Below are positions 46,721-64,000 of a stretch of 64,000 nt of DNA, one piece after another. Below the pieces are notes generated by a model. The model saw only the letters and a program-made list of their open reading frames with translations, was not told the DNA's origin and did not search any database. The first letter of the stretch is position 1. Every line of letters begins with the position of its first letter. Made by a program: the position numbers and the translations under genes. This DNA comes from Desulfobacter postgatei 2ac9 (GTDB lineage Bacteria > Desulfobacterota > Desulfobacteria > Desulfobacterales > Desulfobacteraceae), in assembly GCF_000233695.2 (NCBI RefSeq), contig NZ_CM001488.1, positions 2,474,279 through 2,538,278 of the forward strand, given 5' to 3'.

Positions 46721-49700
46721 ATGATTCGACTCGAAGACCTTAAACCCAATGCCTCATTGCGAGGGCTTTTACCCGATAGTCTGGTAACTGTAGTCAATAT
46801 TCAATGGTATGGTTCCGAAGCCTTGGAACTGACCTATAAAACACCAAATGGCAGGGTGGCAAATGAACTGGTCTATCGCAGCGATGAACAACGACTTGAT
46901 CTGGTCGAACAAGGGCGTCCATGGGGTTTCGATGGAGACGGGGCCATGTTCCGGCTTGTTTCAGAGGCGCACCGTATCAATCTTGCCCATCTTTTTGATC
47001 CGGTTCTGGCGGTTCATACCTCTCTGGTCGATCCCTTACCCCACCAGATTACTGCTGTTTATGGAGAAATGCTTCCCAGGCAGCCGCTACGCTTTCTTCT
47101 GGCCGATGACCCGGGTGCCGGGAAAACCATCATGGCGGGGCTTCTGATTAAAGAACTGATCGCGCGGGGAGATCTTCAACGCTGCCTGATCGTCTGTCCG
47201 GGCAGTCTTGCTGAACAATGGCAGGATGAACTTTACCGTCGATTCTCCCTGCCGTTTGAAATATTGACCAATGATAAATTTGAAGCCGCCCGCACCGGCA
47301 ACTGGTTTCTTGAAACGAACCTGGTCATTGCCCGCCTGGATAAGCTCTCGCGCAATGAAGATGTTCAGCAGAAACTAAAGGCCCAGGATTGTCAATGGGA
47401 TTTGGTCGTCTGTGACGAGGCGCATAAAATGTCAGCAACGGTATTTGGAACAGAGGCAAAATACACCAAGCGCTATCGGCTTGGGCAGCTTTTATCAAGC
47501 CTTACCCGGCATTTTTTATTAATGACTGCGACCCCGCACAATGGAAAAGAGATTGATTTTCAGTTATTCATGGCATTGATAGATGGGGATCGCTTTGAAG
47601 GACGTTTCCGGGATGGTGTTCATTCTGCCGATGTGTCTGATCTCATGCGGCGCATGGTCAAGGAAAATCTTCTCAAATTTGATGGCACACCACTGTTTCC
47701 TGAACGTATTGCCTATACGGTTCCCTACCGGCTTTCCGATGAAGAAGCGTCTCTCTATAAGGCAGTTACTGAATATGTCCGCGAAGAGTTCAACCGGGTG
47801 GAAGCAGTTGAAAACGGCGGCCGGAGAGGAACAGTCGGATTTGCTTTAACCATTCTCCAACGCCGTCTTGCATCTTCTCCCGAGGCCATTCATCAATCGC
47901 TTCGGCGCAGAAGGGAAAGGCTTGAAAGCCGTTTGAGGGAATTGGAAGTGCTCGAGCGTGCCGGCAGAACCGGGAGCATCCTTTCTGACCTGTTGCCGAT
48001 CCTGGATGCAGAAGAGGTGGAGGATCTTGAGGATGCACCGGATGATGAGGTCGAAGTCGCAGAAGCAGAAATCCTTGACCAGGCCACAGCCGCACGATCG
48101 CTCCAGGAGCTGAAGGCCGAGATCCGGACGCTCCGGCATATTGAATCCATTGCCCTCAACGTCAGAAACAGCGGTGCTGATACAAAATGGCTGCAACTGG
48201 CAAGCCTTTTACATGAAATTTTTACGATCCGGACTACAGAAGATGCAGTGCTTGAAGAGGTTAAACCTTATGGTGCCCGGCCTATTCCACCTCACAAGGC
48301 TTCTGTTCATCAGAAACTGGTTATTTTTACCGAACACCGGGACACGCTTAACTATCTGGAAAATAGAATCACGGCTCTGCTGGGAAGAGAATCCGCCGTT
48401 GTTGTCATTCATGGTACGATTGGCCGCGAGGAACGCCTGAAAATACAGGAAGCCTTCCGGCATGATCCAAAAGTCCAGGTCCTGCTTGCCACTGATGCTG
48501 CAGGCGAGGGCATCAACTTACAGCGCGCCCACTTGATGATCAATTATGACCTGCCCTGGAACCCCAACCGGATTGAACAGCGATTCGGCCGGATCCACCG
48601 TATCGGCCAGACTGAAGTCTGCCATTTATGGAACCTTGTGGCTGAAGAAACCAGAGAGGGCGATGTCTATCGTAAGCTTCTGGACAAACTGGAGCAGGCC
48701 CGCCAATCCCTTGGCGGCCAGGTATTTGATGTCCTGGGCAAACTGCAGTTCGAAGGGAAACCCTTGCGAGATCTGCTGATCCAGGCCATCCGGTATGGAG
48801 AACAGCCTGAGGTGATGACCTATTTAACCACTGTTCTGGACCATGCCCTGGACCGGGAACAATTGCGAGACCTCCTTGATGAACGGGCCCTGGCCCATGA
48901 TGCCATGGATGCCGGCAGAATTCGAAGGGTACGCGAAGACATGGAGAGAGCCGATGCCAGGCGTCTGCAACCCCATTATATTGAATCCTTTTTTAGGGAG
49001 GCATTCCAGAAACTTGGCGGAACTGACCGGCAACGGGAACCCCGGCGGTATGAAATTACCCATGTGCCTGCCGTCATCCGGAACCGGGACCGTCTGGTCG
49101 GCATGGGTGAGCCGGTTCTTTCCCGATATGAGCGGATCACCTTTGAAAAAGAATTGATCAATCCCCAGGGCCAGCCCCTTGCGGCATTTGTATGTCCCGG
49201 GCACCCGCTTCTGGATGCAGTAACAGATCTGACACTGGAACGGCACAAGGATCTTCTTAAACGGGGGGCTGTCCTGGTCGATGACCATGATGCAGGCACC
49301 TGTCCCCGGGTCCTTTTTTATCTGGCGCATGCCATCCAGGATGCCGGCACCACCCGATCCGGGGACCGCCGCATTATTTCAAAACAGATGCTTTATGTGG
49401 AACTGGACGCGGATGGTCACAGCCGGCATATGCATTATGCACCCTATCTTGATTTCAGGCCTTTAAAAGAGGGAGAGCCTTCCGTTGAGGATCTTCTTTC
49501 AAGACCTGAATGCGGCTGGATCGACCGGGAACTTGAACACAAGGCCCAAGGGTATGCCATTACCCATGTGGTCCCCGAGCATTTGGCAGAAGTAAAACAA
49601 GGGCGGATTGCCCTGATCGGCAAAACAGAGGCGGCCGTCAAAGAGCGGCTCACAAAGGAAATCACCTATTGGGATCACCGGTCAGAACAGCTTAAACTGC

Positions 49701-50311
49701 AGGAGCAGGCCGGGAAAGTCAATGCCCGCCTGAATTCAAACGAAGCCCGTAAACGGGCAGATACCCTGCAGGCCCGCCTGCAGAAAAGGCTTGAAGAACT
49801 CAAGCTGGAAGCCCGGATCTCACCTTTGCCACCCGTGGTGATGGGAGGGCTTTTGATCATTCCTTCAGGACTGATCCGCAACATGACCGGTCACACAGAA
49901 GAAACTCCGGAAACCATAAGCCGGGCCAGGGATACCCAGGCGGCTGCTGCCAAAGCACGATCCGTGATCATGGATATTGAGCGCAGCCTCGGTTTTGACC
50001 CCATTGACCGGGAAACGGAAAAACTGGGCTACGACATTGAAAGCCGTATCCCCAATACCGGCAAGCTGCGGTTTATTGAGGTTAAAGGCCGCATCACCGG
50101 GGCACAGGCGCTGACCGTTACCCGCAACGAAATTCTTTATTCCCTGAACAAACCCGATGATTTTATTCTGGCCATTGTGGAATTCATGGGGAACGATGAG
50201 CACAAGGTCCATTATCTGCGCCAGCCCTTCCAGCGGGAGCCTGATTTTGGCGTGACCAGCGTCAACTATGCTTTTGCTGAACTTCTGGCCCGGGCGGACA
50301 ATCCATCATGA
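46721..50311 (+). CDS. SNF2-type helicase with C-terminal DUF3883 (defence helicase)
   Basis: A 1,196-residue helicase. Walker A DDPGAGKTIMAGLL (GAGKT 132-136), DEAH box at 232-235 in LVVCDEAHKMSATV, motif III MTATPHNGKE, and the C-terminal helicase motifs ATDAAGEGINLQRAHLM and NRIEQRFGRIHRIGQ. The last 120 residues fit DUF3883: LGYDIESRIPNTGKLRFIEVKG, with Asp1105, Glu1120 and Lys1122 spaced like a PD-(D/E)xK nuclease. Helicases of this type occur with DUF1156 methylases and DUF499 ATPases in antiphage Hma-like systems, and a related one (DrmD) in DISARM. It likely moves along DNA and may cut or load a nuclease. First gene of the island. Confidence 0.88.
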   Translation: MIRLEDLKPNASLRGLLPDSLVTVVNIQWYGSEALELTYKTPNGRVANELVYRSDEQRLDLVEQGRPWGFDGDGAMFRLVSEAHRINLAHLFDPVLAVHTSLVDPLPHQITAVYGEMLPRQPLRFLLADDPGAGKTIMAGLLIKELIARGDLQRCLIVCPGSLAEQWQDELYRRFSLPFEILTNDKFEAARTGNWFLETNLVIARLDKLSRNEDVQQKLKAQDCQWDLVVCDEAHKMSATVFGTEAKYTKRYRLGQLLSSLTRHFLLMTATPHNGKEIDFQLFMALIDGDRFEGRFRDGVHSADVSDLMRRMVKENLLKFDGTPLFPERIAYTVPYRLSDEEASLYKAVTEYVREEFNRVEAVENGGRRGTVGFALTILQRRLASSPEAIHQSLRRRRERLESRLRELEVLERAGRTGSILSDLLPILDAEEVEDLEDAPDDEVEVAEAEILDQATAARSLQELKAEIRTLRHIESIALNVRNSGADTKWLQLASLLHEIFTIRTTEDAVLEEVKPYGARPIPPHKASVHQKLVIFTEHRDTLNYLENRITALLGRESAVVVIHGTIGREERLKIQEAFRHDPKVQVLLATDAAGEGINLQRAHLMINYDLPWNPNRIEQRFGRIHRIGQTEVCHLWNLVAEETREGDVYRKLLDKLEQARQSLGGQVFDVLGKLQFEGKPLRDLLIQAIRYGEQPEVMTYLTTVLDHALDREQLRDLLDERALAHDAMDAGRIRRVREDMERADARRLQPHYIESFFREAFQKLGGTDRQREPRRYEITHVPAVIRNRDRLVGMGEPVLSRYERITFEKELINPQGQPLAAFVCPGHPLLDAVTDLTLERHKDLLKRGAVLVDDHDAGTCPRVLFYLAHAIQDAGTTRSGDRRIISKQMLYVELDADGHSRHMHYAPYLDFRPLKEGEPSVEDLLSRPECGWIDRELEHKAQGYAITHVVPEHLAEVKQGRIALIGKTEAAVKERLTKEITYWDHRSEQLKLQEQAGKVNARLNSNEARKRADTLQARLQKRLEELKLEARISPLPPVVMGGLLIIPSGLIRNMTGHTEETPETISRARDTQAAAAKARSVIMDIERSLGFDPIDRETEKLGYDIESRIPNTGKLRFIEVKGRITGAQALTVTRNEILYSLNKPDDFILAIVEFMGNDEHKVHYLRQPFQREPDFGVTSVNYAFAELLARADNPS

Positions 50312-50348
50312 TTATCATGATAAAAAAAATGATGACAATGGGATTGTT

Positions 50349-50389
50349 GGGTGTTATTGTAACCTCAATACTGAATCTGAATAACACCC
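50349..50389 (+). promoter_or_regulatory. Inverted repeat upstream of the Abi_2 gene
   Basis: GGGTGTTATT (50349-50358) and AATAACACCC (50380-50389) form a perfect ten-base inverted repeat with a 21-base loop in the 145-base gap between helicase and Abi_2. No T run follows, so a terminator is unlikely. It could be a repressor site, a partial attenuator or an RNA hairpin that keeps the Abi_2 protein low. Confidence 0.5.
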
Positions 50390-50456
50390 GCCACGCCTCC
50401 TGGGGTCTTGACCCCGAATGCGCACCCCGGCGGGTTACTTATTTTTGGGGGAAGGC

Positions 50457-51368
50457 GTGAAATATACCAAGCCCCCGCTGACCATTGACGACCAGATCAA
50501 TTTGCTGACGTCCCGGGGAATGACCATACCCGATCCTGCCCGGACTGCCCGCTATCTCTCCCATATCAGTTATTTCCGCCTTCGCGGTTATTGGATTCCT
50601 TTTGAAAAGGGGGATAATGGGAAAGACCATCATTTTAAAGCAGGCACATCCTTTGACAATGTTCTTGATCTCTATATTTTTGACAGAAAATTTCGCCTCC
50701 TCATCCTTGAAGCCATTGAACGGGTGGAAGTCTCCCTGCGGGCTCATTTTGCCAATGAACTGGGAGTCTGTTATGGCAGCCATTTTTATCTGGATGCAGA
50801 CTATATTCATAATACACGGATTCAATCAGGCCTGATTGACTCTCTTAAGGCTGAAATAGACCGAAGCACCGAGCTTTTTATTGATCATTACCGCAAGACC
50901 TATGATGATCCTGCCATGCCCCCCATCTGGGCCGCTGCAGAGGTCATGTCATTTGGTCAGCTTTCCTTGTGGTTTAAGAATCTTAAAACCCGCAGCGATC
51001 GGAACCGTGTGGCCAAATCCTATGGCATTGATGAGGTCATATTACAGTCATTCATGCACCATTTGACGTTTATCCGGAATATCACCGCCCATCACGGCCG
51101 GCTCTGGAACCGCCGCATGACCATCACCATGAAACTGCCCAGAACACCCAGGGCACTTTCTGCCATGCTTAACCCGAAAACCGAACGGTATATTGGAAAC
51201 ACTGCGATCATGCTGGGATATTTTCTTAAATTGATCAGTCCGGGAACATCCTGGCCTGAAAGAATGCGAAAACTGATTCAGGACTCCCCGGGTATTCGAC
51301 CTTCAGCCATGGGATTCAATGAAAATTGGACAGATCTGCCTGTGTGGGATACCAATAAAAGAGAATAG
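50457..51368 (+). CDS. Abi_2 (AbiD/AbiF) family HEPN abortive-infection protein
   Basis: About 303 residues from GTG 50457, preceded by GGGGGAAGGC; an ATG at 50418 would add 13 residues that do not fit the family. KPPLTIDDQINLLTSRGM, ARYLSHISYFRLRGYWIPFE, and FDRKFRLLILEAIERVEVSLR are typical of Abi_2. The C-terminal HEPN motif R-x4-H is intact in FIRNITAHHGRLWN (Arg207, His212), so RNase activity is plausible. Abi_2 proteins stop phage growth by killing or arresting the host. It lies between helicase and methylase and is probably co-transcribed. Confidence 0.88.
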   Translation: MKYTKPPLTIDDQINLLTSRGMTIPDPARTARYLSHISYFRLRGYWIPFEKGDNGKDHHFKAGTSFDNVLDLYIFDRKFRLLILEAIERVEVSLRAHFANELGVCYGSHFYLDADYIHNTRIQSGLIDSLKAEIDRSTELFIDHYRKTYDDPAMPPIWAAAEVMSFGQLSLWFKNLKTRSDRNRVAKSYGIDEVILQSFMHHLTFIRNITAHHGRLWNRRMTITMKLPRTPRALSAMLNPKTERYIGNTAIMLGYFLKLISPGTSWPERMRKLIQDSPGIRPSAMGFNENWTDLPVWDTNKRE

Positions 51369-51377
51369 AATAAATAT

Positions 51378-54260
51378 ATGAAAAAGAAACTCATTGAAGT
51401 GGCCTTGCCTTTGGATGCCATTAACAAGGCTTGTGCCCGTGAAAAATCCATCCGCCATGGCCATCCGTCCACGCTTCATCTCTGGTGGGCCAGACGCCCC
51501 CTGGCCGCAGCCCGGGCTGTGATTTTTGCCCAGATGGTGGATGATCCGTCCGGATATCCAGACCTGTTCCCCACAGAAAAAGCCCGGGAAAAGGAACGCC
51601 AGCGCCTGTTTAAAATTATCGAGGATCTGGTGTTGTGGGAGAATACCACCAACGAGACGGTCCTGCAAAAGGCCAGGGATGAAATCTGGCAGAGCTGGCA
51701 CCGCACCTGTGCGCAACATGCTGATCATCCAAGGGCAGAAGAATTGTTTAACCGCTATGTTCTGCCCGCTTTCCATGATCCCTTTGCCGGCGGCGGGTCC
51801 CTGCCCCTGGAGGCCCAACGCCTGGGGCTGGAAAGTTATGCCTCGGATCTCAATCCCGTGGCGGTGCTCATCAACAAGGCCATGATCGAAATCCCGCCCA
51901 AATTTGCCGGGAAACCACCGGTAAACCCGGACTGGCAGAATAAACCCGAGAGAGAAAAGGCCCTGTCTCTCTGGAAGGGTGCCCAGGGCCTGGCCGAGGA
52001 TGTCAGATACTATGGGAAATGGATGCGGGATGAGGCGGAAAAACGCATCGGCCACCTGTACCCCAAAATTGAAATCACAGATGAAATGGTCAAAAAAAGA
52101 CCGGATCTGAACCCCTATGCCGGTAAAAAACTCACTGTGATTGCCTGGCTCTGGGCCCGTACGGTGAAAAGTCCCAACCCGGCCTTTGCCCATGTGGATG
52201 TGCCGCTGGCTTCCACCTTCATGCTTTCCACCAAAAAGGGCAAGGAAGCCTATGTGGAGCCGGTGATTGAAAATGGGGGGTATCGGTTTGCGGTGAAGGT
52301 GGGTAAGCCTGAGGATGATATAGCTGTAAAACTTGGAACATCGGCAGGCAAACGGGCAGGATTTAAGTGTCTGATGTCCGGAACGCCATTGCCCTATGAT
52401 TACATCCGGTCTGAAGGGCAGGCTGGTCGCATGGGGGAACGAATGATGGCCATTGTTGCAGAAGGTGTGCGTGGGCGGGTGTATCTTAAGCCGACACCGG
52501 AAATGGAAGCCATTGCTTTGACCGCAAAACCTGAATGGAAGCCGGATACACCAATGTATGGCAAGTGTCGCGTCAATGTATCCAACTATGGATTGGATGT
52601 TTACGGCGATCTTTTTACCCCTCGCCAGCTTGTGGCCCTGACAACCTTCTCCGATCTGGTGCAGGAAGCCCGTGAGCAAGTAAAACAGGATGCTGTTAAG
52701 GCGGGTCTGTCTGATGATGGCAAAACACTGGATAAATTGGGCGATGGGGCTGAGGCCTATGCTGATGCAGTGGCAGTATTTTTAGGGTTTGGAGTGAGCA
52801 AGACAAGCAATCGTTCGAGCTCGATATGTACTTTTAAGAGTGGAGTACAGTGCCCCGGAGATACTTTTGGTAGGCAAGCGATACCTATGTCCTGGGATTA
52901 TGCAGAAGCCAATATAGTGAATGGTCCAAGCGGCTCATTTGAAAGCATGATGAAAAATGTTGTTGCTGGATTGCTTTCAAACGGTACAACGAATGGCACA
53001 AGAGGCTTGGCAAGGCAACAAGATGCTTCAAAACAATCGATTAGTGCAACAAAAATCGTCTCCACAGATCCTCCCTATTATGACAATATAGGCTATGCTG
53101 ATTTGTCTGATTTTTTTTATGTTTGGTTACGCCGTTCTCTAAAATTGACCTTTCCAGAACTTTTTGCCACGCTTGTTGTACCAAAGGAAAGAGAATTGGT
53201 GGCCACACCTTACCGTCATGGCAGCAAAAAAAAAGCTGAAGCTTTCTTCCTTGAGGGAATGTCCCAGGTTATGCACCGGCTCTCAGCTCAGACACATCCA
53301 GCTTTCCCGGTTACCATTTATTATGCCTTTAAACAGTCTGAGAGTGATGGTGCAGATGGCCTAACCAATACCGGTTGGGATACTTTTTTAGATGCCATTA
53401 TCAAAGCTGAATTCGCAATCAGTGGAACTTGGCCAATGAGAACTGAGCGTGAGAATCGTAAAATTAATCAAGGCACCAACGCTCTTGCCTCCAGCATCGT
53501 CTTAGTCTGCCGAAAGCGATATGTTGATGCCCCCATTGCCACCCGCAGGGATTTTGTGGCTACCCTCAAATCCGAATTGCCCCAGGCCCTTGCCCATCTC
53601 CAGCGCGGTAATATTGCACCCGTGGATCTGGCCCAGGCGGCCATCGGTCCGGGCATGGCGGTTTACACCCGGTATTCAAAAGTTCTGGATGCCAAAGGCA
53701 CCCCTCTTACGGTTCGCGAAGCCCTGTCCCTGATCAACCAGACCCTGGATGAAGCCCTGGCCGAGCAGGAGGGGGATTTTGATGCAGACAGCCGCTGGGC
53801 CCTGACCTGGTTTGACCAGATGGGGTTTGCTGAAGGTGATTACGGGATCGCAGAGCAGCTTTCCAAATCTAAAAATACCAGCGTGTCCGGCATGGTGGAG
53901 GCCGGGATTCTGGTATCCAGATCCGGGAAAGTTCGCCTTTTGACACCGGCTGAACTGCCCCAGGGCTGGGACCCTGAAACCGACAAACGGCTCACGGTCT
54001 GGGAAATGGTGCATCAGCTCATCCGCGCCCTTGAAACCGGCGGAGATTCAGCCGCAGCCATGCTTGTGGCCAAACTGGGTGCACAGGCCGAGACGGCCCG
54101 GGAACTGTGCTACCGCCTTTATACCCTTTGTGAACGAAAAAAACGGGCCAATGAGGCCATTGCATACAATAGTCTGGTGCAGAGCTGGCCGGAAATTATC
54201 CGGCTGGCAGGTGAAGAAAAAGACAAGAAACCTCAAGACGAACAATCTGAAATGTTCTGA
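51378..54260 (+). CDS. DUF1156 DNA methyltransferase (defence methylase)
   Basis: 960 residues. The N-terminus has the DUF1156 hallmark ([20 protein letters not shown]). SAM-binding motif [13 protein letters not shown] is at 134-146 and the catalytic DPPY at 564-567 ([20 protein letters not shown]), so an amino-methyltransferase (N6-adenine or N4-cytosine) is expected. The long stretch between them would hold target recognition. It lies ten bases after the Abi_2 stop. Base content is mosaic: samples near 51,800 and 53,550 are 57-67 percent G+C, but samples at 52,800-53,360 are 35-48 percent, suggesting an exchanged central block that includes DPPY. Its job is probably self-marking. Confidence 0.88.
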
Positions 54261-54271
54261 CAGGAGATCCC

Positions 54272-57200
54272 ATGGCAATTACCAACCACGAACGCGTCGG
54301 CAAGGCACTGGCGTCGCTTAAAAAAGGGCTGGGGCCCTTTGCCGAGCGCGAGTTTAAACATATTTACAAAGGTCAGGCGCAAAAGGAAATTCGGCAGATG
54401 GTGGCTGATGACCGAATCAATATGGACGGCTCCATGGCCCAGTGGGATGTGGCTGTGCTGCTCAAACTCATGTGGGATTCCTGGAACACGGTTTTCCGTC
54501 TGACCCTGGGCCATACGGAAAGAAGTCTTGTCAGCGAGCTTCGGGATATCCGCAACAAATGGGCGCACCAGGAGTCCTTTACCGGCGATAACACCTATCG
54601 GGCTTTGGATTCTGCCGCAAGGCTTTTAACCGCAGTTTCCGCACCCGAGGCCGATGATATTGAACGCATGAAAATGGAGCTTTTGCGCCTGCGGTTTGAT
54701 GAGCAGGTGCGCAGTGAGAAACGAAAAAGCGCAGGCACAGTGGTGGAAAGTGCGGCCACGGGCAATCTGAAACCCTGGCGGGAAATCGTGACCCCTCATA
54801 AGGATGTGGCCAGCGGCCGGTATCAGCAGGCTGAGTTTGCCGCAGACCTCTGGCAGGTACACCTGGGACAGGGAACAGACGAATACCGTGATCCAATTGA
54901 GTTTTTCCGGCGTACCTTTTTGACTGAGAGTCTGAAAAGCATGCTCAAAGACGGTATTCAGCGTTTGAATGGTCAGGGGGGTGATCCTGTGGTTCAGCTC
55001 CAGACCAATTTCGGCGGCGGCAAGACCCATTCCATGCTGGCGTTGTATCATCTGTTTTCAGGGGTCAGTCCCACCACACTTGCCGGGATTGATGCGGTGA
55101 TGGATGAGGCCGGGGCTGCCACGGTACCAGCGGCCCGCCGGGTGGTGCTGGTGGGCAATAAGATTTCCCCGGGAAATCCTTGTGTCAAACCGGACGGTAC
55201 TATGGTGCACACCCTCTGGGGGGAAATGGCCTGGCAGCTGGGCGGTAAAAAAGCCTATGCCCGCATCCAGGCGGATGATGAAAAAGCCACCAGCCCCGGG
55301 GATGTTTTGCGCGAGCTGTTTCAAGAATATGGTCCCTGCCTGATCCTGATTGATGAATGGGTGGCCTATGCCCGACAGCTTCATGACCAGAGTGATCTGC
55401 CGGCCGGCGGATTTGAGACCCAGTTCACCTTTGCCCAGGTCCTGACCGAATCTGCCAAGCTGGCCGGTAACTGCCTTTTGGTCATCAGTCTCCCGGCATC
55501 GGATACAGCAGGTTCCCACCATACCCGGGCCGATGATGTTGAAGTGGGCGGGCAAAGGGGGCGCGAGGCCCTGGATCGTCTGCGCAATGTGGTGGGCCGT
55601 GTGGAGTCCTCCTGGCGGCCGGCCAGTGCAGAAGAGGGGTTTGAAATTGTCCGGCGTAGGCTGTTCGAGCCCATGACAGATCCGGACCAGTTCAAGGACC
55701 GGGATGTGGTGGCCAGAAATTTCAGTGATTTTTATCGTGCCCAGTCTGCGGAATTTCCGCCTGAAAGCCGGGATGCTGATTATGAAAAACGGATCAAGGC
55801 AGCCTATCCCATCCATCCGGAAATTTTTGACCGCCTCTATACTGACTGGTCCACCCTGGTGAAATTTCAGAGAACCCGGGGTGTTTTGCGGCTTATGGCA
55901 GCCGTGATTCACAGCCTGTGGGAAAAGGGGGATAAAAATCCATTGATCATGCCGGCCAATATTCCCATTGACGACCCGCGGGTCCAGTTTGAATTGACCC
56001 GGTATCTTTCAGACAACTGGGTACCGGTTATTGAAAAGGATGTGGATGGCCCCAACGCCCTGCCGTTGCAGATGGATGGGGATGTGCCGAACCTGGGCAA
56101 ATTTGCAGCCTGCAGAAGAGTGGCACGAGCCATTTACATGGGATCGGCCCCCCTGACCAAGGCAGCCCACCGGGGGATTGAGGATCGTCGCATCAAGCTG
56201 GGATGTGTTATCCCAGGTGAAACACCGGCTATATTTGGCGATGCCCTGCGGCGTCTGGCATCAGTGGGAACTTATCTGTACCAGGATGGACCCCGGTACT
56301 GGTATTCAACCCAGCCCACCGTGACCAAACTGGCTGATGACCGGGCTGAACAGCTCAAACGGGATCCGGATAAAATGATTCATGAGCTGAATCTTAGGCT
56401 GCGGGAGGATCTTAAAACCATGGGGGATTTTTCCCGCATTCACCCCATGCCCTCCTCGGGCCAGGATGTGCCCGATGATCCGGAAGTCCGGCTGGTGATG
56501 CTGGGGATTGAAACTCCCTATGGCAGAGAATCGGCGAGCAAAGCAGAACTTGCGGCAAAATCCATATTCGAATCCCGCGGCAACACCCCCAGGCTGCACC
56601 GGAATTCCCTTATTTTTATGGCTGCAGATAAAACCCGGCTGCAGGACCTGGATGAGGCGGTCAGAAAATATCTTGCCTGGGAATCGATCCTGGCCGAAGC
56701 AACCCAGTTGAATCTTGATCCCCAGCAGGTAAAACAGGCCCAGGCTCAAAAAACAGCTGCGGACGGGGCTGTAAAGGCCCGCCTGCCTGAAACATACCAG
56801 TGGCTCTTAGTACCGGTACAAAAGGACCCTGCAGCAATGATAGAGTGGCAGGCGTTCCGTCTGACTGGCCTGGATGCCCTCGCCGTCAGGGCCGGCAAGA
56901 AACTGCAAAATGACGAATTGATGATCACAAGTTATGCACCCACACTGCTGCGCATGGAGATGGACCGAATACCCCTCTGGCGAGGGGGAAATCATGTCTC
57001 TGTCAGGCAGATAATTGAAGATTTTTCAAGGTATCCTTATCTGCCGCGGCTGAAAAATCCGGCTGTATTGATATCTGCCATCCAATCCGGCCTGTCACTG
57101 AGCACCTGGTTCAAAGATTCATTTGCCTATGCCGAGAGTTTTGATGAGACTGAAAAAAGATATCGGGGGTTGCGGACAAATCAGACAGTACCAATGGCAA

Positions 57201-57613
57201 GTGAAAATCCCCAGGGCCTGCTGGTCAAACCGGAAATTGCACAAAAGCAGATAGAGGCCGAGACCATCCCCTCAGTTTCTCCCATCTCTTTGGGTGGAGA
57301 TAGTGGCCCTGGCGGGGGGGAATTTCCAAGGCCATTGCCAGGGGATCTGCACCCTGAACCAGAAGGTGATTCAGATAAACCCAAACGATTTTTTGGAACC
57401 GTAAACCTCGATGCCACCCGCGTCGGCCGTGATGCAGGGAAAATCGCAGAAGAGGTGATTGCTCATCTTTCCGGTCTGATAGGGGCAAAGGTTACTGTGA
57501 CCCTTGAAATATCCGCTGAAATGCCAGACGGTGTATCAGATCAGGTGGTCCGCATTGTCACTGAAAACAGCCGTGCATTAAAATTTAGCAGCCAGGGATT
57601 TGAGAAAGAATAA
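54272..57613 (+). CDS. HEPN (Swt1-like)-DUF499 AAA-type ATPase (defence ATPase)
   Basis: 1,113 residues with CAGGAG before the ATG. The N-terminal 130 residues are a Swt1-type HEPN domain with an R-x4-H motif at Arg94-His99 (LRDIRNKWAHQ). The DUF499 ATPase follows: Walker A QTNFGGGKTHSMLALY (248-254), a likely Walker B at LILIDEWVAYAR, and a long C-terminal part with a Pro/Gly-rich linker (near residue 1010) before a small final domain (TRVGRDAGKIAEEVI). DUF499 proteins accompany DUF1156 methylases in defence loci. It is the last gene of the operon, probably the energy-using partner of the helicase and methylase. Confidence 0.88.
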   Translation: MAITNHERVGKALASLKKGLGPFAEREFKHIYKGQAQKEIRQMVADDRINMDGSMAQWDVAVLLKLMWDSWNTVFRLTLGHTERSLVSELRDIRNKWAHQESFTGDNTYRALDSAARLLTAVSAPEADDIERMKMELLRLRFDEQVRSEKRKSAGTVVESAATGNLKPWREIVTPHKDVASGRYQQAEFAADLWQVHLGQGTDEYRDPIEFFRRTFLTESLKSMLKDGIQRLNGQGGDPVVQLQTNFGGGKTHSMLALYHLFSGVSPTTLAGIDAVMDEAGAATVPAARRVVLVGNKISPGNPCVKPDGTMVHTLWGEMAWQLGGKKAYARIQADDEKATSPGDVLRELFQEYGPCLILIDEWVAYARQLHDQSDLPAGGFETQFTFAQVLTESAKLAGNCLLVISLPASDTAGSHHTRADDVEVGGQRGREALDRLRNVVGRVESSWRPASAEEGFEIVRRRLFEPMTDPDQFKDRDVVARNFSDFYRAQSAEFPPESRDADYEKRIKAAYPIHPEIFDRLYTDWSTLVKFQRTRGVLRLMAAVIHSLWEKGDKNPLIMPANIPIDDPRVQFELTRYLSDNWVPVIEKDVDGPNALPLQMDGDVPNLGKFAACRRVARAIYMGSAPLTKAAHRGIEDRRIKLGCVIPGETPAIFGDALRRLASVGTYLYQDGPRYWYSTQPTVTKLADDRAEQLKRDPDKMIHELNLRLREDLKTMGDFSRIHPMPSSGQDVPDDPEVRLVMLGIETPYGRESASKAELAAKSIFESRGNTPRLHRNSLIFMAADKTRLQDLDEAVRKYLAWESILAEATQLNLDPQQVKQAQAQKTAADGAVKARLPETYQWLLVPVQKDPAAMIEWQAFRLTGLDALAVRAGKKLQNDELMITSYAPTLLRMEMDRIPLWRGGNHVSVRQIIEDFSRYPYLPRLKNPAVLISAIQSGLSLSTWFKDSFAYAESFDETEKRYRGLRTNQTVPMASENPQGLLVKPEIAQKQIEAETIPSVSPISLGGDSGPGGGEFPRPLPGDLHPEPEGDSDKPKRFFGTVNLDATRVGRDAGKIAEEVIAHLSGLIGAKVTVTLEISAEMPDGVSDQVVRIVTENSRALKFSSQGFEKE

Positions 57614-57620
57614 GTTCTTT

Positions 57621-57730
57621 CAATTAGACATTATACCGATTTTTCATAACCTATTGATTTTACTGGGAAGATTGTTTTTAAGGATCTAATAAAATCAAGA
57701 ACTTAGCCAAAATCGATATAATGTCTATTG
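57621..57730. repeat. Long imperfect inverted repeat at the island's right edge
   Basis: TAGACATTATA (57625-57635) is repeated as its exact reverse complement at 57717-57727. Around it GATTTT/AAAATC also pairs, with a two-base mismatch between, and CAA/TTG pairs outside after a one-base slip. The arms are about 22 bases each with a loop of 60-odd bases. It starts eight bases after the last defence gene and precedes the convergent GlmS-like gene. It could be a terminal repeat of a vanished element or a large transcription-ending hairpin. Confidence 0.6.
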
Positions 57731-57770
57731 ATTCCACTCCAAATTTAGAACTGCTGGTTCAGGCACTAAC

Positions 57771-60700
57771 TCAGTTGAGTTTTTCAACAATCTCCGCCAC
57801 AGCCCGTTCAGCCGTGGCCCCGAACAGGGTCTCAATATCCATAAGGTTGAGGTATTTATCATCCCATGCCACATTTTTACTTTCAAGAACCCAGTCCTTG
57901 ATCCGGGTGTATTTTCCGCCCAGGGCCTTGATTTTCTTGAGCAGGGTGACTTCTTCTGAGGATTTAAAGGCAATGTTCAAAGACAGAAGAAATTCAATGA
58001 TGTTGGGTGACGTGGGCGAAGATGAGAGTACCGGAATCACAAGAATGCTTCTGTTGTCTTTCCGGCCCTTGCCGATATATACGTTACCCTCCCTGACAAT
58101 GATGTTTTTGGTGCCCTTGAGACGGTGATCTGTTTCCACCCTTGAGGTTTCATTGGTCAGAATGCCTGTTTTTGATACCACATCAATGCGGGTATTGGAT
58201 GTCACTTTTCCTAAAAGACTCAAGCCCGTGATGCGGTAAAGCACTGCGCCTTTAATTTCGGATATGATTTCCTGCAGGTTTTTAAGGACCAGTACATTGG
58301 TATTGGTAAGCAAAGAAATCTGGATCTTATGTTCCGCCAGGGCATCAAATACAATGCCTTCAAAGCGTTCACTGGTCCGGCTGGTACCCACGGTAACCGT
58401 TTTGGCCTGGTGCTTGATGGCGTCCACAGGCCGGGCCATGACATTGATGGCCTGGTTCATGGTGGTAAAAAAGGTGGACAGCATATTGGGCGGGGTCCCT
58501 TTGACGCCAAAATCCACTTCAAAATCCGATACCGGCAGCCTTCCGGACAGGTATTTTAGCAGCAGGGTGATATCGGATACGGTGGTCAAGCCCATGGCAC
58601 CGGGAAATTCTCCCCGGCGCCTTTTTTGGGAAAACCGGTTGTAGAACTCTGCCACGGTTTCCGTGAATTTGTTTTCTAAAAGCACCTCGTAATCATCATG
58701 GCCCATGTGCCTGAACTCTTTAATGATATTTTCTATTTTCAGCCTTGCCTCATAGAAAAATTTTGATCCGGCATTGATGGCAAGCGCTGCATAGTAACCC
58801 CAGATATGTCCCACCAGGGTATTGAGAATCGGGGCAAAATGTTCCTGGACTTCGGGTATCTTGAATACGGCCTTGGCATATAGATCAAAGCGGTCTTCGC
58901 CCTGGGTCGTGATCACAATGGGACAGGCTTTGTGGGCATGGAAAATGGCTGTGTCCTTAATGATGTCCCCAAGCACGCTTTCCCGGGTGCCGGCAGCACA
59001 GACAATGATCAGTGGTTCGCTTGACAGGTCAATGTGTTTTTTATCTTCAACAAAATCGGAGGAGATGGTTTTGTAGCACAGTTCGGACAGTTTGATCCTG
59101 ATTTCATCAGCAGATGTTTTGTTGGCACCTGACCCTACTGTGGCCCAGTAATTTTTGGAGATGGCCAGCTTGTCCGCACATTCCCTGATCTCATTACCCA
59201 TGGCAAGCACGGTTTTCATTTTTGCCGGCAGTTCCATCAGCGCCCGGATCTGCTCGTGGATATACTTTTCACTTCTGGCATTGAGCAGGGCGGCTATGTG
59301 CAGCCCAAGCACAGCCCCGGCCGTGATCTGGGAGTAGAAGGCCTTGGTGGAGGCCACGGACATTTCAATGTCCCTGCCGGAACTGGTGTACAATACCCCG
59401 TCCACTTTGAAAGTCAGATCTGAATCCCTGCGGTTGACAATGGCAAGGCTCCTGCCACCGTGGGCCCGAACCATGTCCACGGTCCGATTGGTGTCCGTGG
59501 TGGTGCCGGACTGGCTGATGGCGACAACCAGCGTGTTTTCCATGGCTCTGGTATTTTCACCTTTGCCGCCAATGCTGAACCCGGAAAGCTCAGATGCTTT
59601 CTGTGCACGAATATCAATGGATTTACCCCCAAGGTAATGGGTGAGAAGATCCGCACATCCCTGGGCTGCAATACCCGCTGTCCCCTGGCCGATGAAAAAT
59701 ATTTTTTTAATTTTTCCGGACCGTAACTCTTCTTCCAGGTCCGGCGGGATAATCGTCCTGTGCAGATTAATATTGAGAAGTCCTGAAACCGGATTTTGTT
59801 TGAATTTGTTTTCCAGTGTTTTTTCAACGGAGAGCGGGGATTCAGATATCTCCTTGAGGAAATAGTGGTTATACCCCTGGCGGTCAATATCCCGGGAGGT
59901 GATTTGGCTTTCGAGCACATCATCCCGGGTCAGGGTGATGGGCTGGTTATCATAGTAAAAAGAGCGCACCCCTTCAATACCACCGGCACCCTCCTGGTCC
60001 AGGACCACGATCTGTCCCTTTTCTTCCCCCTTGAGTTTGATGTAGTGGCGGGTCTCCTCCACCACACCGTACAATTCAGATGCAGCGATGTAATGGTCCG
60101 GGGCAAGCCCCACAAAAATGGCCTGTCCACTGCCTTTCTGCGCCAGAAACAATTTGCCCGGGGCAAGATCTGTGTGCATGGAAATGGCGTGGGACCCCTC
60201 GAATTCATTGACCGCCAGGCGGAAAGCCTCTTCAATGGGTGCGCCCGTTTTCAGATGGTGTTCAATCTGCAGCGGAATCAATTTGGTGTCCGTGGTGATC
60301 TGGGGATGAATTTTATCGTACCGGGCCTCGTATTCGGTTTTCAGTTCCAGGTAGTTGTCAATATCCCCGTTAAGGCAGACATGGATGATACCGCTTCGGG
60401 GTATCCTGGTATCTGTGGATGCATTGTCCAAAGGATGGCAGTTGGCTTCGGTTATATCACCTATGGATGCCCATCTTGTATGGGCCGAGACCGATGACGT
60501 CAAGGGTGAAAATTCGGCAAGAGCCTGGAGTATGGGATCTTTTTTAATCTGATTCCTGATAAAGGCGATGTTGTCGCCAAGGGCACCTATCTCTGCGGCA
60601 AATTTGTATACAAAACAGATGGTAATACGGTTCTGGGAACCTGGGCCGCTAACTTCATTAACTGAGATGGTGTTGTTTGACAGGATTTGTCGGTTGCTTC

Positions 60701-61484
60701 TGTTTTCCAAATCTTTGTCGAGCCCACTTTTTTCAAGAACTCTTTTATATTTTGAAAATTCTTTTTCATCCAGGGTGCACAGCACTGAAATGCCTGCCGA
60801 ATCCCGTCCTCTGACCTCCAGGCGGTCAAGGCTGTTGAGTACGGCATTGATCCGCTTAAAAAGCGCTATCCCTGACGGATTGTTTTGTTTCTCTATGCCC
60901 GGGGCCAGATTCGCAATGGCCTCAATATTGTCAATAATCTCTTTTTTCAGGCACCAGACGATATCCTTGAGCAGGTCAATATAATTTGAGGCAATCTCCG
61001 CCTCGGGCGTGGATAAGCCCGCAGTCGCAGATTTGAAATCCCGGACTTCATTCGTAAGAATTTTTTCAATATCCTGAGCAATGCCTGACAATTTGCGGGT
61101 TTTTTCCCGGTTATAAAACAGGGAGGCAAAACTCGTTTCCTGTTTAAGGTTCTGGGCATGGTCAAACAGGGTGGATAAAAAGTCTGCGCCGCCCAGATAA
61201 TTTTCTGAAACCATGGGGGGGTTGCCTTTGGAGAGCGGGCCAAGACGATTTTGTGAAAGGGTTTCAATGCCCTTGGACAAGGAATCCAGATCATTTTCAC
61301 AGGCAGGCCCTTTAAATGCCACAAGGGCACAGATCCCGCAGCCCAGGGTGCAGCCGGTGTCGGGAAAAAAAAGTAGGGTGTTTTCCTTCACCGATGACAA
61401 TGGTTTGCCCATGTCTACATTTATTTTTGCAATGTCTTTAAGATAATTAAAAAGTTGTGCTGAAAGATTGTCCTGCCATTTCAT
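57771..61484 (-). CDS. Giant GlmS-like glutamine amidotransferase / SIS protein
   Basis: 1,237 residues, twice the usual GlmS (about 610), which makes glucosamine-6-phosphate from fructose-6-phosphate and glutamine. The Ntn glutaminase pattern is split: CGICALVAFKG with the nucleophile candidate Cys49, RGRDSAG at 225-231, HTRWAS at 335-340 and NGDIDN at 372-377. Thus 48 residues precede the Cys (a propeptide would have to be removed) and about 165 residues are inserted. SIS domain 1 includes ISQSGTTTDT (656-665) and SVASTKAF; SIS domain 2 runs from about 780 to 905. About 330 C-terminal residues are extra, with RPVDAIKHQAKTVTVGTSR at 1018-1036. It may be the sole GlmS or a relative. Confidence 0.7.
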   Translation of the reverse strand: MKWQDNLSAQLFNYLKDIAKINVDMGKPLSSVKENTLLFFPDTGCTLGCGICALVAFKGPACENDLDSLSKGIETLSQNRLGPLSKGNPPMVSENYLGGADFLSTLFDHAQNLKQETSFASLFYNREKTRKLSGIAQDIEKILTNEVRDFKSATAGLSTPEAEIASNYIDLLKDIVWCLKKEIIDNIEAIANLAPGIEKQNNPSGIALFKRINAVLNSLDRLEVRGRDSAGISVLCTLDEKEFSKYKRVLEKSGLDKDLENRSNRQILSNNTISVNEVSGPGSQNRITICFVYKFAAEIGALGDNIAFIRNQIKKDPILQALAEFSPLTSSVSAHTRWASIGDITEANCHPLDNASTDTRIPRSGIIHVCLNGDIDNYLELKTEYEARYDKIHPQITTDTKLIPLQIEHHLKTGAPIEEAFRLAVNEFEGSHAISMHTDLAPGKLFLAQKGSGQAIFVGLAPDHYIAASELYGVVEETRHYIKLKGEEKGQIVVLDQEGAGGIEGVRSFYYDNQPITLTRDDVLESQITSRDIDRQGYNHYFLKEISESPLSVEKTLENKFKQNPVSGLLNINLHRTIIPPDLEEELRSGKIKKIFFIGQGTAGIAAQGCADLLTHYLGGKSIDIRAQKASELSGFSIGGKGENTRAMENTLVVAISQSGTTTDTNRTVDMVRAHGGRSLAIVNRRDSDLTFKVDGVLYTSSGRDIEMSVASTKAFYSQITAGAVLGLHIAALLNARSEKYIHEQIRALMELPAKMKTVLAMGNEIRECADKLAISKNYWATVGSGANKTSADEIRIKLSELCYKTISSDFVEDKKHIDLSSEPLIIVCAAGTRESVLGDIIKDTAIFHAHKACPIVITTQGEDRFDLYAKAVFKIPEVQEHFAPILNTLVGHIWGYYAALAINAGSKFFYEARLKIENIIKEFRHMGHDDYEVLLENKFTETVAEFYNRFSQKRRRGEFPGAMGLTTVSDITLLLKYLSGRLPVSDFEVDFGVKGTPPNMLSTFFTTMNQAINVMARPVDAIKHQAKTVTVGTSRTSERFEGIVFDALAEHKIQISLLTNTNVLVLKNLQEIISEIKGAVLYRITGLSLLGKVTSNTRIDVVSKTGILTNETSRVETDHRLKGTKNIIVREGNVYIGKGRKDNRSILVIPVLSSSPTSPNIIEFLLSLNIAFKSSEEVTLLKKIKALGGKYTRIKDWVLESKNVAWDDKYLNLMDIETLFGATAERAVAEIVEKLN

Positions 61485-61566
61485 ATGTATCCTCCATATA
61501 GCGCTATGTCCTAGACGGACACAACAAAGAATGAAACCATAAGCAACCGATATATAAAACTAAATG

Positions 61567-61581
61567 AGCGCCGCTGGCGCT
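61567..61581 (-). terminator. Weak hairpin after the penicillin-binding protein gene
   Basis: AGCGCC-AGC-GGCGCT on the minus strand begins right after the stop codon at 61582 and is followed by a moderately T-rich run (CATTTAGTTTTATA). A weak terminator is possible; the GlmS-like gene starts 83 bases further on. Confidence 0.4.
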
Positions 61582-62967
61582 TCATCCTCTACTCTCTTGT
61601 TTCTTGTCTCTATTTTCTTGGGTGGGGGCGCTGAAATAGGTTTTCAGCATATTTTTTGCGTGGATGCTTGCCCGGGTCCCGATATATTTGCCGTGACCCA
61701 CCACCACGGCGACAATTAAAGTACGGTTTGTCACTTTATGCTGTCCGAATCCCGCAAACCAGTCATATCGAATGGTATGCTCTTTGTTGGACAGGGAGCC
61801 GGTTTTCCCTCCGATCACAAGATCGGATAACACGTCATCCCGTGAATACCCAACGAAGCGTTTCCTGGCTGTACCGCTCGATATGGTTTTTTTCATTAAT
61901 CTCATCATGGTTGCCGCTGTTTGGGGACTGAAAGGTGTTTTATATATCTCTTTGGTGCTTTTGTAAATCAGGTCTCCGTTTGAAATTGATATGCTGTCAA
62001 CAAGGCGGGGTACAAGGATGTTCCCATTGTTCACCGCCGCTGAAACCATTGCCGCGGCAAATACAGGTGAAATAAGGGTGTCCCGGTTAAATCCGCTCCC
62101 AAGTTCTGCTATATGGTAATCAGAGCCGGTGGTGTCAAAATGGGGGGCCGGGAAATCAAAATCAGTATCCGGGCTCTGATTAAAACCAAATTTTTGGGCA
62201 ATATCGTTAAGTGCCTCTTTGCCAAGGGTAATTTGCCCGAGTTTGCCGAATACCGGGTTAATAGATTCGGCAAAAGCGGTCTCCAGGGAAACCTTGTTGG
62301 TATATTTGCCTTTCTGGTTTGCTAACTGCTGTTGGTACAGGGTGTGTTTTCTGCCGGTGAAATAAAGGGGGGTCGTGGCGGTATAATTTAATTTTTCCAC
62401 GGCAGCAGATGCGGTGACAATTTTGAAAATGCTGGCAGCCGGATAGTCGGCCAGTGTGCAGGGGTTTACGGTCGGATCGTTCGGATCAAACCCTGCCATG
62501 GCTTTTATGAATCCGGTATCGGCATCCATGGCGACCATGCCGATAAGTTCGGGCTTTCCCCGGTCCAATGTCTTCAAATAGTTCAGTGTGCTGATCAGTT
62601 CTTCCTGAAGGCGTGTATCCAGTTGGGTGTGGATGGTAAATGCCCCGGAAGGGCAGTCCGCAAATAATACGTCTGTTTTTGAATTGAGAATATCAATGCT
62701 TTGGATCAGGGCTTTGACTTGGGATTTCCCAAGGTGCTTGGGCGGGACCGGCTCACTGACAATTTTGTCCGGTTTTTCGGGAAGCGGTCGATCACTTAAT
62801 TTGGAAACCGTGTTCACTCCAAACCAGAGCAACACTGCGGCTGCAACACCAAGACAGAGAACCCTTCTCATTTGGCGTATTCGCTTGGCCATGGCCTGTT
62901 TCTTTTTTAGCTCAATATAGTCTGTCTGAAGTTCTCGCCAGGAACGATGTGTTTTAATGGAATGCAA
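61582..62967 (-). CDS. Penicillin-binding protein transpeptidase, single domain
   Basis: 461 residues. One membrane anchor near residues 35-52 (VLCLGVAAAVLLWFGV) leaves the rest in the periplasm. The three active-site motifs are present: SxxK as SIFK in AASIFKIVTASAA, SxN as SIN in AESINPVFGKLG, and KTG in VIGGKTGSLSNKEH. HTQLDTRLQEELIS is the usual lead-in of class A/B PBPs. The glycosyltransferase and PASTA parts are absent, so this is a small class B-like D,D-transpeptidase that cross-links peptidoglycan. It follows metG by 38 bases on the same strand. Confidence 0.85.
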   Translation of the reverse strand: MHSIKTHRSWRELQTDYIELKKKQAMAKRIRQMRRVLCLGVAAAVLLWFGVNTVSKLSDRPLPEKPDKIVSEPVPPKHLGKSQVKALIQSIDILNSKTDVLFADCPSGAFTIHTQLDTRLQEELISTLNYLKTLDRGKPELIGMVAMDADTGFIKAMAGFDPNDPTVNPCTLADYPAASIFKIVTASAAVEKLNYTATTPLYFTGRKHTLYQQQLANQKGKYTNKVSLETAFAESINPVFGKLGQITLGKEALNDIAQKFGFNQSPDTDFDFPAPHFDTTGSDYHIAELGSGFNRDTLISPVFAAAMVSAAVNNGNILVPRLVDSISISNGDLIYKSTKEIYKTPFSPQTAATMMRLMKKTISSGTARKRFVGYSRDDVLSDLVIGGKTGSLSNKEHTIRYDWFAGFGQHKVTNRTLIVAVVVGHGKYIGTRASIHAKNMLKTYFSAPTQENRDKKQESRG

Positions 62968-63005
62968 AAGCTGATCTCAAAATATCAATATGTTTGAATG
63001 GTGGA

Positions 63006-64000
63006 CTATTTAACCTGGCCACCGGGCTTCGAACTACCGTTGAATCCGGAAAGAACAAGGTCTTTTTTCACACTTGCCGCAAGCACCATGCCCTCGGACA
63101 ATTCTCCCATAAGTTTCACGGGTTTCAGGTTGGCGACAACAATGACCTCTTTGCCCACCACCTCTTCGGGTGTGTAGGATTTGCCTATGCCTGCCACGAT
63201 CTGCCGGGTCTGGGTGCCTAAATCCACTTGAAGTTTAAGTAATTTGTCCGATTTCTCAATACGTTCAGCAGAGACAATCTTGCCGGCTCTTAAATCTATT
63301 TTGGAAAAATCATCAATGGTGATTTCTTCTTTTAATGCCGGTTTGAGCGGTTTGGGTGCAGGGAGTTCAGCCGCTTTTTTTTCAACGTCCACCCGGGGAA
63401 AAAGAATCTGGGGCGTTGCCAGAGTAATGCCGCAAGGCATCTGACCCCAGGGCCGGATGGCATCAAGGGTGAAAAACCCTTTTTCAGGCAGCTCAAGGCC
63501 AAGGGCGGTAATGATTTTACCGCTGGTTTCCGGCATGACCGGCCAGATTAGACCGGCCACAAAGCGGATACCATCGAGCAGTTCGTACAACACCGTACCA
63601 AGATCGCCTGTGCGTGCCGGATCTTTGGCCAGGCCCCAGGGTTCATTGGTAACAATGTATTTATTCATGGCTGATACCAGTTCCCATACGCTTGCAAGGG
63701 CCTTGTGAAACTGGCATTCTGCCATGGCGGCTGTGTACGCGTCAAAGGCTGCGGCAGCCTCGGGTTCAAGGCTTAAATTTTTGTCTGAATCCGGAGACGG
63801 GCACTGGACAGTACCCTTGAAATACTTCTGGTTCATGGACAGCACACGGGAGAACAGATTGCCCAAATCATTGGCAAGGTCTGAGTTGATCCGTGAAACA
63901 ATGACATCTTCGGTGAAATTGGCGTCCAGACCAAAGACCATCTCCCGCATAAGAAAATATCTGAACGCATCCACGCCGAACCGGCCGGTGACCTCCACAG
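63006..64000 (-). CDS. metG: Methionyl-tRNA synthetase, C-terminal part (cut by window edge)
   Basis: The frame runs off the right edge, so the catalytic HIGH and KMSKS motifs are outside the window. Seen: the stem and anticodon-binding helices (GVDAFRYFLMREMVFGLDANFTED, INSDLANDLGNLFSRVLSM, NKYIVTNEPWGLAKD) and the C-terminal EMAP/Trbp111-like tRNA-binding domain (IDDFSKIDLRAGKIVSAERI, VVANLKPVKLMGELSEGMVLAAS), which also drives dimer formation. The stop is at 63006. Confidence 0.95.
   Translation of the reverse strand, partial: VEVTGRFGVDAFRYFLMREMVFGLDANFTEDVIVSRINSDLANDLGNLFSRVLSMNQKYFKGTVQCPSPDSDKNLSLEPEAAAAFDAYTAAMAECQFHKALASVWELVSAMNKYIVTNEPWGLAKDPARTGDLGTVLYELLDGIRFVAGLIWPVMPETSGKIITALGLELPEKGFFTLDAIRPWGQMPCGITLATPQILFPRVDVEKKAAELPAPKPLKPALKEEITIDDFSKIDLRAGKIVSAERIEKSDKLLKLQVDLGTQTRQIVAGIGKSYTPEEVVGKEVIVVANLKPVKLMGELSEGMVLAASVKKDLVLSGFNGSSKPGGQVK

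Follow-up and report, generated by a model that had tools for sequence, protein, structure and literature searches.

The 64,000-nucleotide stretch of Desulfobacter postgatei 2ac9 analysed here (the window; contig NZ_CM001488.1, positions 2,474,279 to 2,538,278) carries a gene for a 1,237-residue protein that resembles glucosamine-6-phosphate synthase (GlmS), a textbook enzyme and drug target. We asked whether a protein of this length can serve as the organism's GlmS, and how the cysteine that is residue 1 of mature GlmS could act as the nucleophile when it stands at residue 49. From comparison with its homologs, we consider it likely that the protein is the organism's glucosamine-6-phosphate synthase, made as a precursor that is cut at Cys49 and perhaps ending in a sensing module. 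The gene is one intact frame and the product matched the GlmS fold, in agreement with an earlier description made from the letters alone (the sequence-only reading); homologous loci were also found. Mapped positions below follow what we take to be the residue names and numbers of E. coli GlmS. The gene and its parts are as follows.

57771..61484, minus strand: whole gene, encoding the 1,237-residue precursor; ATG start, zero internal stops
61491..61495, minus strand: GGAGG ribosome-binding site, 6 nt upstream of the ATG, read from the sequence
61341..61484, minus strand: N-terminal extension, residues 1-48, the proposed propeptide (ratio of nonsynonymous to synonymous differences, pN/pS; invariant Pro41, position -8)
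61338..61340, minus strand: codon of Cys49, equivalent of GlmS Cys1 (structural alignment; kept in 136/136 homologs)
59883..61340, minus strand: class II (N-terminal nucleophile, Ntn) glutaminase, residues 49-534, with two inserts (GATase_6; 1xff_A, Z 29.6, root-mean-square deviation (rmsd) 1.8, 237 aligned)
60873..61307, minus strand: first glutaminase insert, about 145-151 residues, mostly helical
60501..60791, minus strand: stretch with the second glutaminase insert, which adds about 65 residues from the R26 to the R73 equivalent
58773..59882, minus strand: two SIS (sugar isomerase) domains, residues 535-904 (SIS match; 3tbf_A, Z 41.3, rmsd 2.1, 347 aligned)
58434..58772, minus strand: helical insert of about 112 residues, from the second SIS domain to the catalytic loop
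58377..58433, minus strand: catalytic loop RPVDAIKHQAKTVTVGTSR at residues 1018-1036, corresponding to the C-terminus of GlmS
58401..58403, minus strand: codon of Lys1028, equivalent of GlmS Lys603 (residue mapping; kept in 136/136)
57774..58373, minus strand: C-terminal domain, residues 1038-1237, with a PAS/GAF-like fold (weak match)

A Pfam scan of the protein found a SIS domain and a class II glutaminase (GATase_6), and no phosphoribosyltransferase domain of the kind seen in PurF. Its nearest solved relatives by sequence were E. coli GlmS and human GFAT. We modelled residues 49-1237 with AlphaFold2 (63 sequences; mean predicted local distance difference test (pLDDT) 83.1, predicted template modelling score (pTM) 0.77) and aligned the model using VIA-align. 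Model residues 1..984 matched residues 1..608 of E. coli GlmS (1jxa_A; Z 40.4, rmsd 5.7, 594 aligned), and Cys49, the first Cys of CGICALVAF, superposed on residue 1 of that enzyme, placing Cys1 where the sequence-only reading had put it.

Spacing against a canonical 608-residue GlmS (L116) located the additional length. The long form gains 151 residues between C1 and R26, 65 between R26 and R73 (66 by E. coli numbering), 12 between R73 and D123, about 24 between D123 and T302, 125 between T302 and K603, of which 112 come after H504, and 204 beyond K603; the enlarged segments sum to 1,189 residues, which with the 48-residue extension gives 1,237. The extra glutaminase length noticed beforehand is thus present, divided between two inserts of about 151 and 65 residues instead of forming one of about 165. 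Likewise, 330 residues do follow the second SIS domain, but they are not a plain tail: because the Lys603 equivalent is Lys1028, the catalytic loop sits in their middle. The first insert and the tail matched no known family above chance in Pfam or among solved-structure sequences. A match to ACT_9 (one of 32 members, E 0.014) was not accepted as evidence of a family.

We then compared catalytic residues in a table of 137 rows, representing 136 distinct homologs with the N-terminus covered. Repeats or partial sequences (L124, L155, L157, L164) and contigs starting past the Cys (L055, L106) were left out, as were, earlier, frames below 1,150 residues (L035, L041, L099, L109, L115), three own-genome repeats, identical sequences and contig-cut frames below 1,000 residues (L152, L168). 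On the glutaminase side C1, R26, R73, W74, H86, N98, G99 and D123 were identical in 136/136, and on the isomerase side so were T302, Q348, S349, T352, S401, K485, E488, H504 and K603. Every homolog therefore holds the residues that mark an Ntn glutaminase (C1, R73, N98, G99, D123), and the double SIS arrangement with K603, E488 and H504 that marks a GlmS-type amidotransferase is present. Loss of Cys49 in relatives, named beforehand as a sign against its role, never occurred. Two positions alternate between similar states: S347 is Ser in 106 and Thr in 30, and R599 is Lys in 111 and Arg in 25. A Cys directly after the start Met, the ordinary arrangement, is lacking in the D. postgatei protein, where 48 residues precede it, and occurs in 11 of the 136. 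A metal site made of C45, C49 and C52 (CxxxCxxC) was dismissed, C45 and C52 being variable among relatives.

The extension itself behaves as coding sequence. Computed over 105 pairs from 15 genus rows, pN/pS came to 0.28 across residues 2-48 and to 0.17 when only residues 25-48 were counted. The first insert gave 0.31, and the blocks that run from residue 205 onwards to the C-terminus gave 0.11-0.17. An in-frame stop lies only four codons before the shared Met in 10/14 genus homologs. These comparisons indicate that the 48 residues are translated and under purifying selection, a peptide ahead of a cysteine that is otherwise N-terminal. The extension is present in 125/136 homologs, all of which have Pro at -8, with Phe at -9 in 117 and Gly at -23 in 107. 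Residue -1 is variable in the same 125 (C 41, S 21, N 20, G 14, F 10, A 6, H 5, Y 4, L 2, R 1, P 1), as expected if a cut is directed from the Cys side.

The 11 homologs without the extension start with Met immediately before the Cys, each behind a purine-rich stretch resembling a ribosome site. Two of them (L125, L161) have an in-frame stop two codons ahead of the start, and in four (L102, L112, L125, L167) the upstream reading frame reaches within a few bases of it, leaving no room for an extension. A frameshift origin of these starts was rejected, since none of the other frames upstream of the 11 genes shows the extension pattern. A FastTree tree built from the 136 rows requires at least five changes of the extension state, at least four of them forced by well supported branches. 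The divergent outgroup rows (L153, L154, L156) are all Met-Cys, so under the assumed root one gain and several later losses explain the tree most simply. These three proteins, of 1,163-1,170 residues, belong to two other families of the phylum and have a tail that matches but is divergent. Repeated loss ending exactly at Met-Cys is what would be expected if every one of these mature proteins begins with the Cys, and the 11 proteins imply that the active site of the mature enzyme can do without extension residues. The sequence-only reading had named conserved residues before the Cys, in the active site of homologs, as a sign against processing; Pro -8 is such a residue, yet these 11 rows do without the whole extension. 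As a natural comparison between homologous sequences, the Met-Cys proteins strongly support a mature N-terminus at Cys49 and hence the propeptide removal proposed beforehand.

We propose the following course. The protein would be made as a precursor, and the chain would be cut between residue 48 and Cys49, by analogy with related enzymes, freeing Cys49 as the N-terminal nucleophile. The cut is probably autocatalytic, as it is in other Ntn amidotransferases, with a protease as the alternative; we prefer self-cleavage because residue -1 is unconstrained. The glutaminase would then hydrolyse glutamine and pass ammonia to the SIS domains, where fructose-6-phosphate, held via Lys1028, would become glucosamine-6-phosphate. 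The long protein would thereby make glucosamine-6-phosphate from glutamine and fructose-6-phosphate. The domain beyond the catalytic loop may be a regulatory ligand-sensing module; this is the weakest step and a guess.

Glutamate synthase, another class II amidotransferase, whose propeptide is a few dozen residues long, differs in having no SIS domains and another catalytic partner, and PurF carries a phosphoribosyltransferase domain rather than SIS domains. The long form shares with GlmS and GFAT (EC 2.6.1.16; E. coli 1jxa, 2j6h; human GFAT-1 6svm) the order of glutaminase and double SIS, the equivalents of C1, R73, N98, G99, D123, E488, H504 and K603, and a whole-length structural match. Unlike them it is of double length, with 48 residues before the Cys, two glutaminase inserts, an insert ahead of the catalytic loop, an extra C-terminal domain and a score under the GlmS cut-off. 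A review (PMC9140057) describes autocatalytic removal of the few residues preceding the Cys in class II amidotransferases. According to another paper (PMC3261824), some PurF members have a peptide before the Cys and others start Met-Cys, so that PurF of the Bacillus subtilis type, also class II, varies by member as the long form does. Compared with PurF, the extension here is long (48 residues) and has its own FP-x7-C pattern. A PurF-like frame in the D. postgatei genome, so labelled from size and pattern, likewise has residues preceding its Cys. In the literature searched, outside which most subscription papers fall, we found no propeptide and no such long form for GlmS, in keeping with the sequence-only reading's statement that removal of a propeptide is not known for GlmS.

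The sequence-only reading had suggested looking for a second, normal glmS, and a TIGR01135 search of the complete 3.97-Mb genome found none: this gene is the sole GlmS candidate there, the other matches being only partial. GlmM scores over its cut-off in this genome, which implies that glucosamine-6-phosphate is needed. No GlmU over cut-off was found there; a frame at C1:1670808-1671536 has the first half of GlmU only, and a 414-residue frame beside glmM (C1:2401125-2401775) corresponds to the second half; GlmU may therefore be divided.

A contig search found 138 homologous loci, of which 80 were kept, which speaks against a chance reading frame. The long form occurs, whole or in pieces, in 56/59 genomes drawn around and including that of D. 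postgatei; an automatic count of 58/59 also takes in G040, through its ordinary GlmS, and G022, through a match of 21 bits. These two are exceptions, G040 with an ordinary frame of 614 residues that passes the GlmS cut-off and G022 with a weak distant match only. Distant GlmS-like matches (23-25% identity) at G022:C30 and G021:C177 lie within open frames of 1,186 and 1,535 residues, possibly another enlarged GlmS-like family. Across a sample of 297 genomes of the phylum, 37 had the long form, 36 of them without a GlmS over cut-off, and 233 of the 260 genomes without the long form carried such a GlmS; the remaining 27, read from the table, had partial matches (3) or weak matches only (24). The exclusion gave a Fisher p of 5e-28, uncorrected for shared descent. 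Across Desulfobacterales and several sister families, the long type appears to have taken over from ordinary GlmS.

Several observations weigh against this assignment. NCBIfam GlmS models score the protein at 248-267 bits where their cut-offs are 381-418; for the TIGR01135 equivalog it reaches 248.3 bits against a curated 418.05, and it is accordingly not classed among the ordinary GlmS equivalogs. Among the 136 homologs, T76 is replaced by Ser, S303 by Ala and E351 by Thr in all, and H97 by Leu in 135. One genome, G240, has both an ordinary 616-residue GlmS frame (L182) and a long-form frame of 1,277 residues (L132). Neither form is found in G055, a relative with a completeness rating of 97%, which reflects either an assembly gap or another glucosamine route. 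The low scores and the sugar-site changes at S303 and E351 would suit a GlmS-type amidotransferase-isomerase acting on another amino sugar, with glucosamine-6-phosphate coming from elsewhere. We hold this to be improbable, given that the genome has GlmM but no other GlmS, that long and ordinary forms exclude each other in the phylum, and that the equivalents of K603, E488 and H504 are invariant.

The strict conservation of Pro -8 could alternatively point to an extension that is retained in the mature protein and keeps a function there. Cys49 would then be internal and the protein a free-ammonia enzyme whose glutaminase half is a relic or a regulator, a reading to which the conserved Pro -8 (125/125) and Phe -9 (117/125) lend some weight. 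We regard it as unlikely: the glutamine-site residues R73, N98, G99 and D123 are invariant together with the Cys, and the 11 Met-Cys homologs are hard to understand unless a free Cys is used. Those same eleven starts could instead hint that the true start of the D. postgatei gene lies further in, with neither extension nor processing. That seems very improbable, as the codon preceding Cys49 is GGC, Met stands at -1 in 0/125 extended rows (the two with Leu there use CTG), GGAGG precedes the ATG, and the substitution pattern of residues 2-48 is that of coding sequence. Removal of a propeptide from a glucosamine-6-phosphate synthase remains our preferred account.

Modelled alone, residues 1038-1237 gave an AlphaFold2 pLDDT of 92.0 and a pTM of 0.88, and Foldseek with this model returned no match at E 0.001. 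The best VIA-align match was 7jsr_A (Z 8.4, rmsd 5.2, 162 aligned), followed by 5w10_C (Z 8.1, rmsd 2.7, 81 aligned) and 3ci6_A (Z 8.0, rmsd 3.5, 85 aligned); further matches were mostly PAS and GAF chains, the whole range of Z being a weak 6.2-8.4. The top-ranked chain comes from the large glutamate dehydrogenase of Mycobacterium smegmatis (PMC8175468), an unrelated enzyme with 10% identity, tied with several PAS/GAF chains. Z values near 8 may reflect no more than a common arrangement, and values this weak make a sensor role for the tail only a guess. A profile of the tail run against 40 relatives matched nothing outside the long gene or contig-cut pieces, save two short fragments. These (G015:C1:170405-170611 and G017:C1:726069-726236) are second copies of the last 56-69 tail residues, 86-88% identical to the tail and apart from the main gene. 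A more elaborate proposal would make the protein, at the committed step into cell-wall amino sugars, a zymogen, kept off by the conserved FP-x7-C propeptide with its free residue at -1 until it cuts itself and controlled at the sugar site by a PAS/GAF-like domain that directly follows the Lys603 loop and senses a metabolite; we rate this as doubtful, and found no description of zymogen- or sensor-type control of GlmS in the literature searched.

The gene stands between the following neighbours.

61582..62967, minus strand: penicillin-binding protein gene with a transpeptidase domain, upstream neighbour (Pfam match)
63006..63998, minus strand: methionyl-tRNA synthetase (metG), C-terminal part, further upstream and cut by the window end
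46721-50311, plus strand: HmaA (PADLOC)
50418-51368, plus strand: AbiD/Abi_2 gene, between HmaA and HmaB (PADLOC)
51378-54260, plus strand: HmaB (PADLOC)
54272-57613, plus strand: HmaC (PADLOC)

Genes resembling that for the penicillin-binding protein lie near the long-form gene in 74/109 loci and metG-like genes in 51/109, counted over loci that were not de-duplicated and on contigs many of which end early. The adjacent penicillin-binding protein gene fits a role of the long GlmS in cell-wall supply. An Rfam scan of 57000-64000 matched no RNA element such as the glmS ribozyme, and a promoter and terminator scan, which gave nothing clearly exceeding shuffled sequences, was not used. On the other side, PADLOC found a complete Hma (helicase, methylase, ATPase) anti-phage set at window positions 46721-57613 on the plus strand. 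An anti-phage role of the long GlmS, suggested by these adjoining defence genes, was rejected: the protein itself has no PADLOC match, and HmaB and HmaC matches are absent from the flanks (up to 5 kb) of the 109 long-form loci.

Judged by sequence, what is new here would be a GlmS-like enzyme with an added processing step and added domains, lacking both the equivalog score and the Met-Cys start. Standard GlmS cut-offs overlook this form in the greater part of an order whose members are mainly sulfate reducers. The lineage-wide replacement of GlmS by a protein of double length, whose proposed propeptide changed state several times, is a natural experiment on how Ntn enzymes gain and lose maturation.
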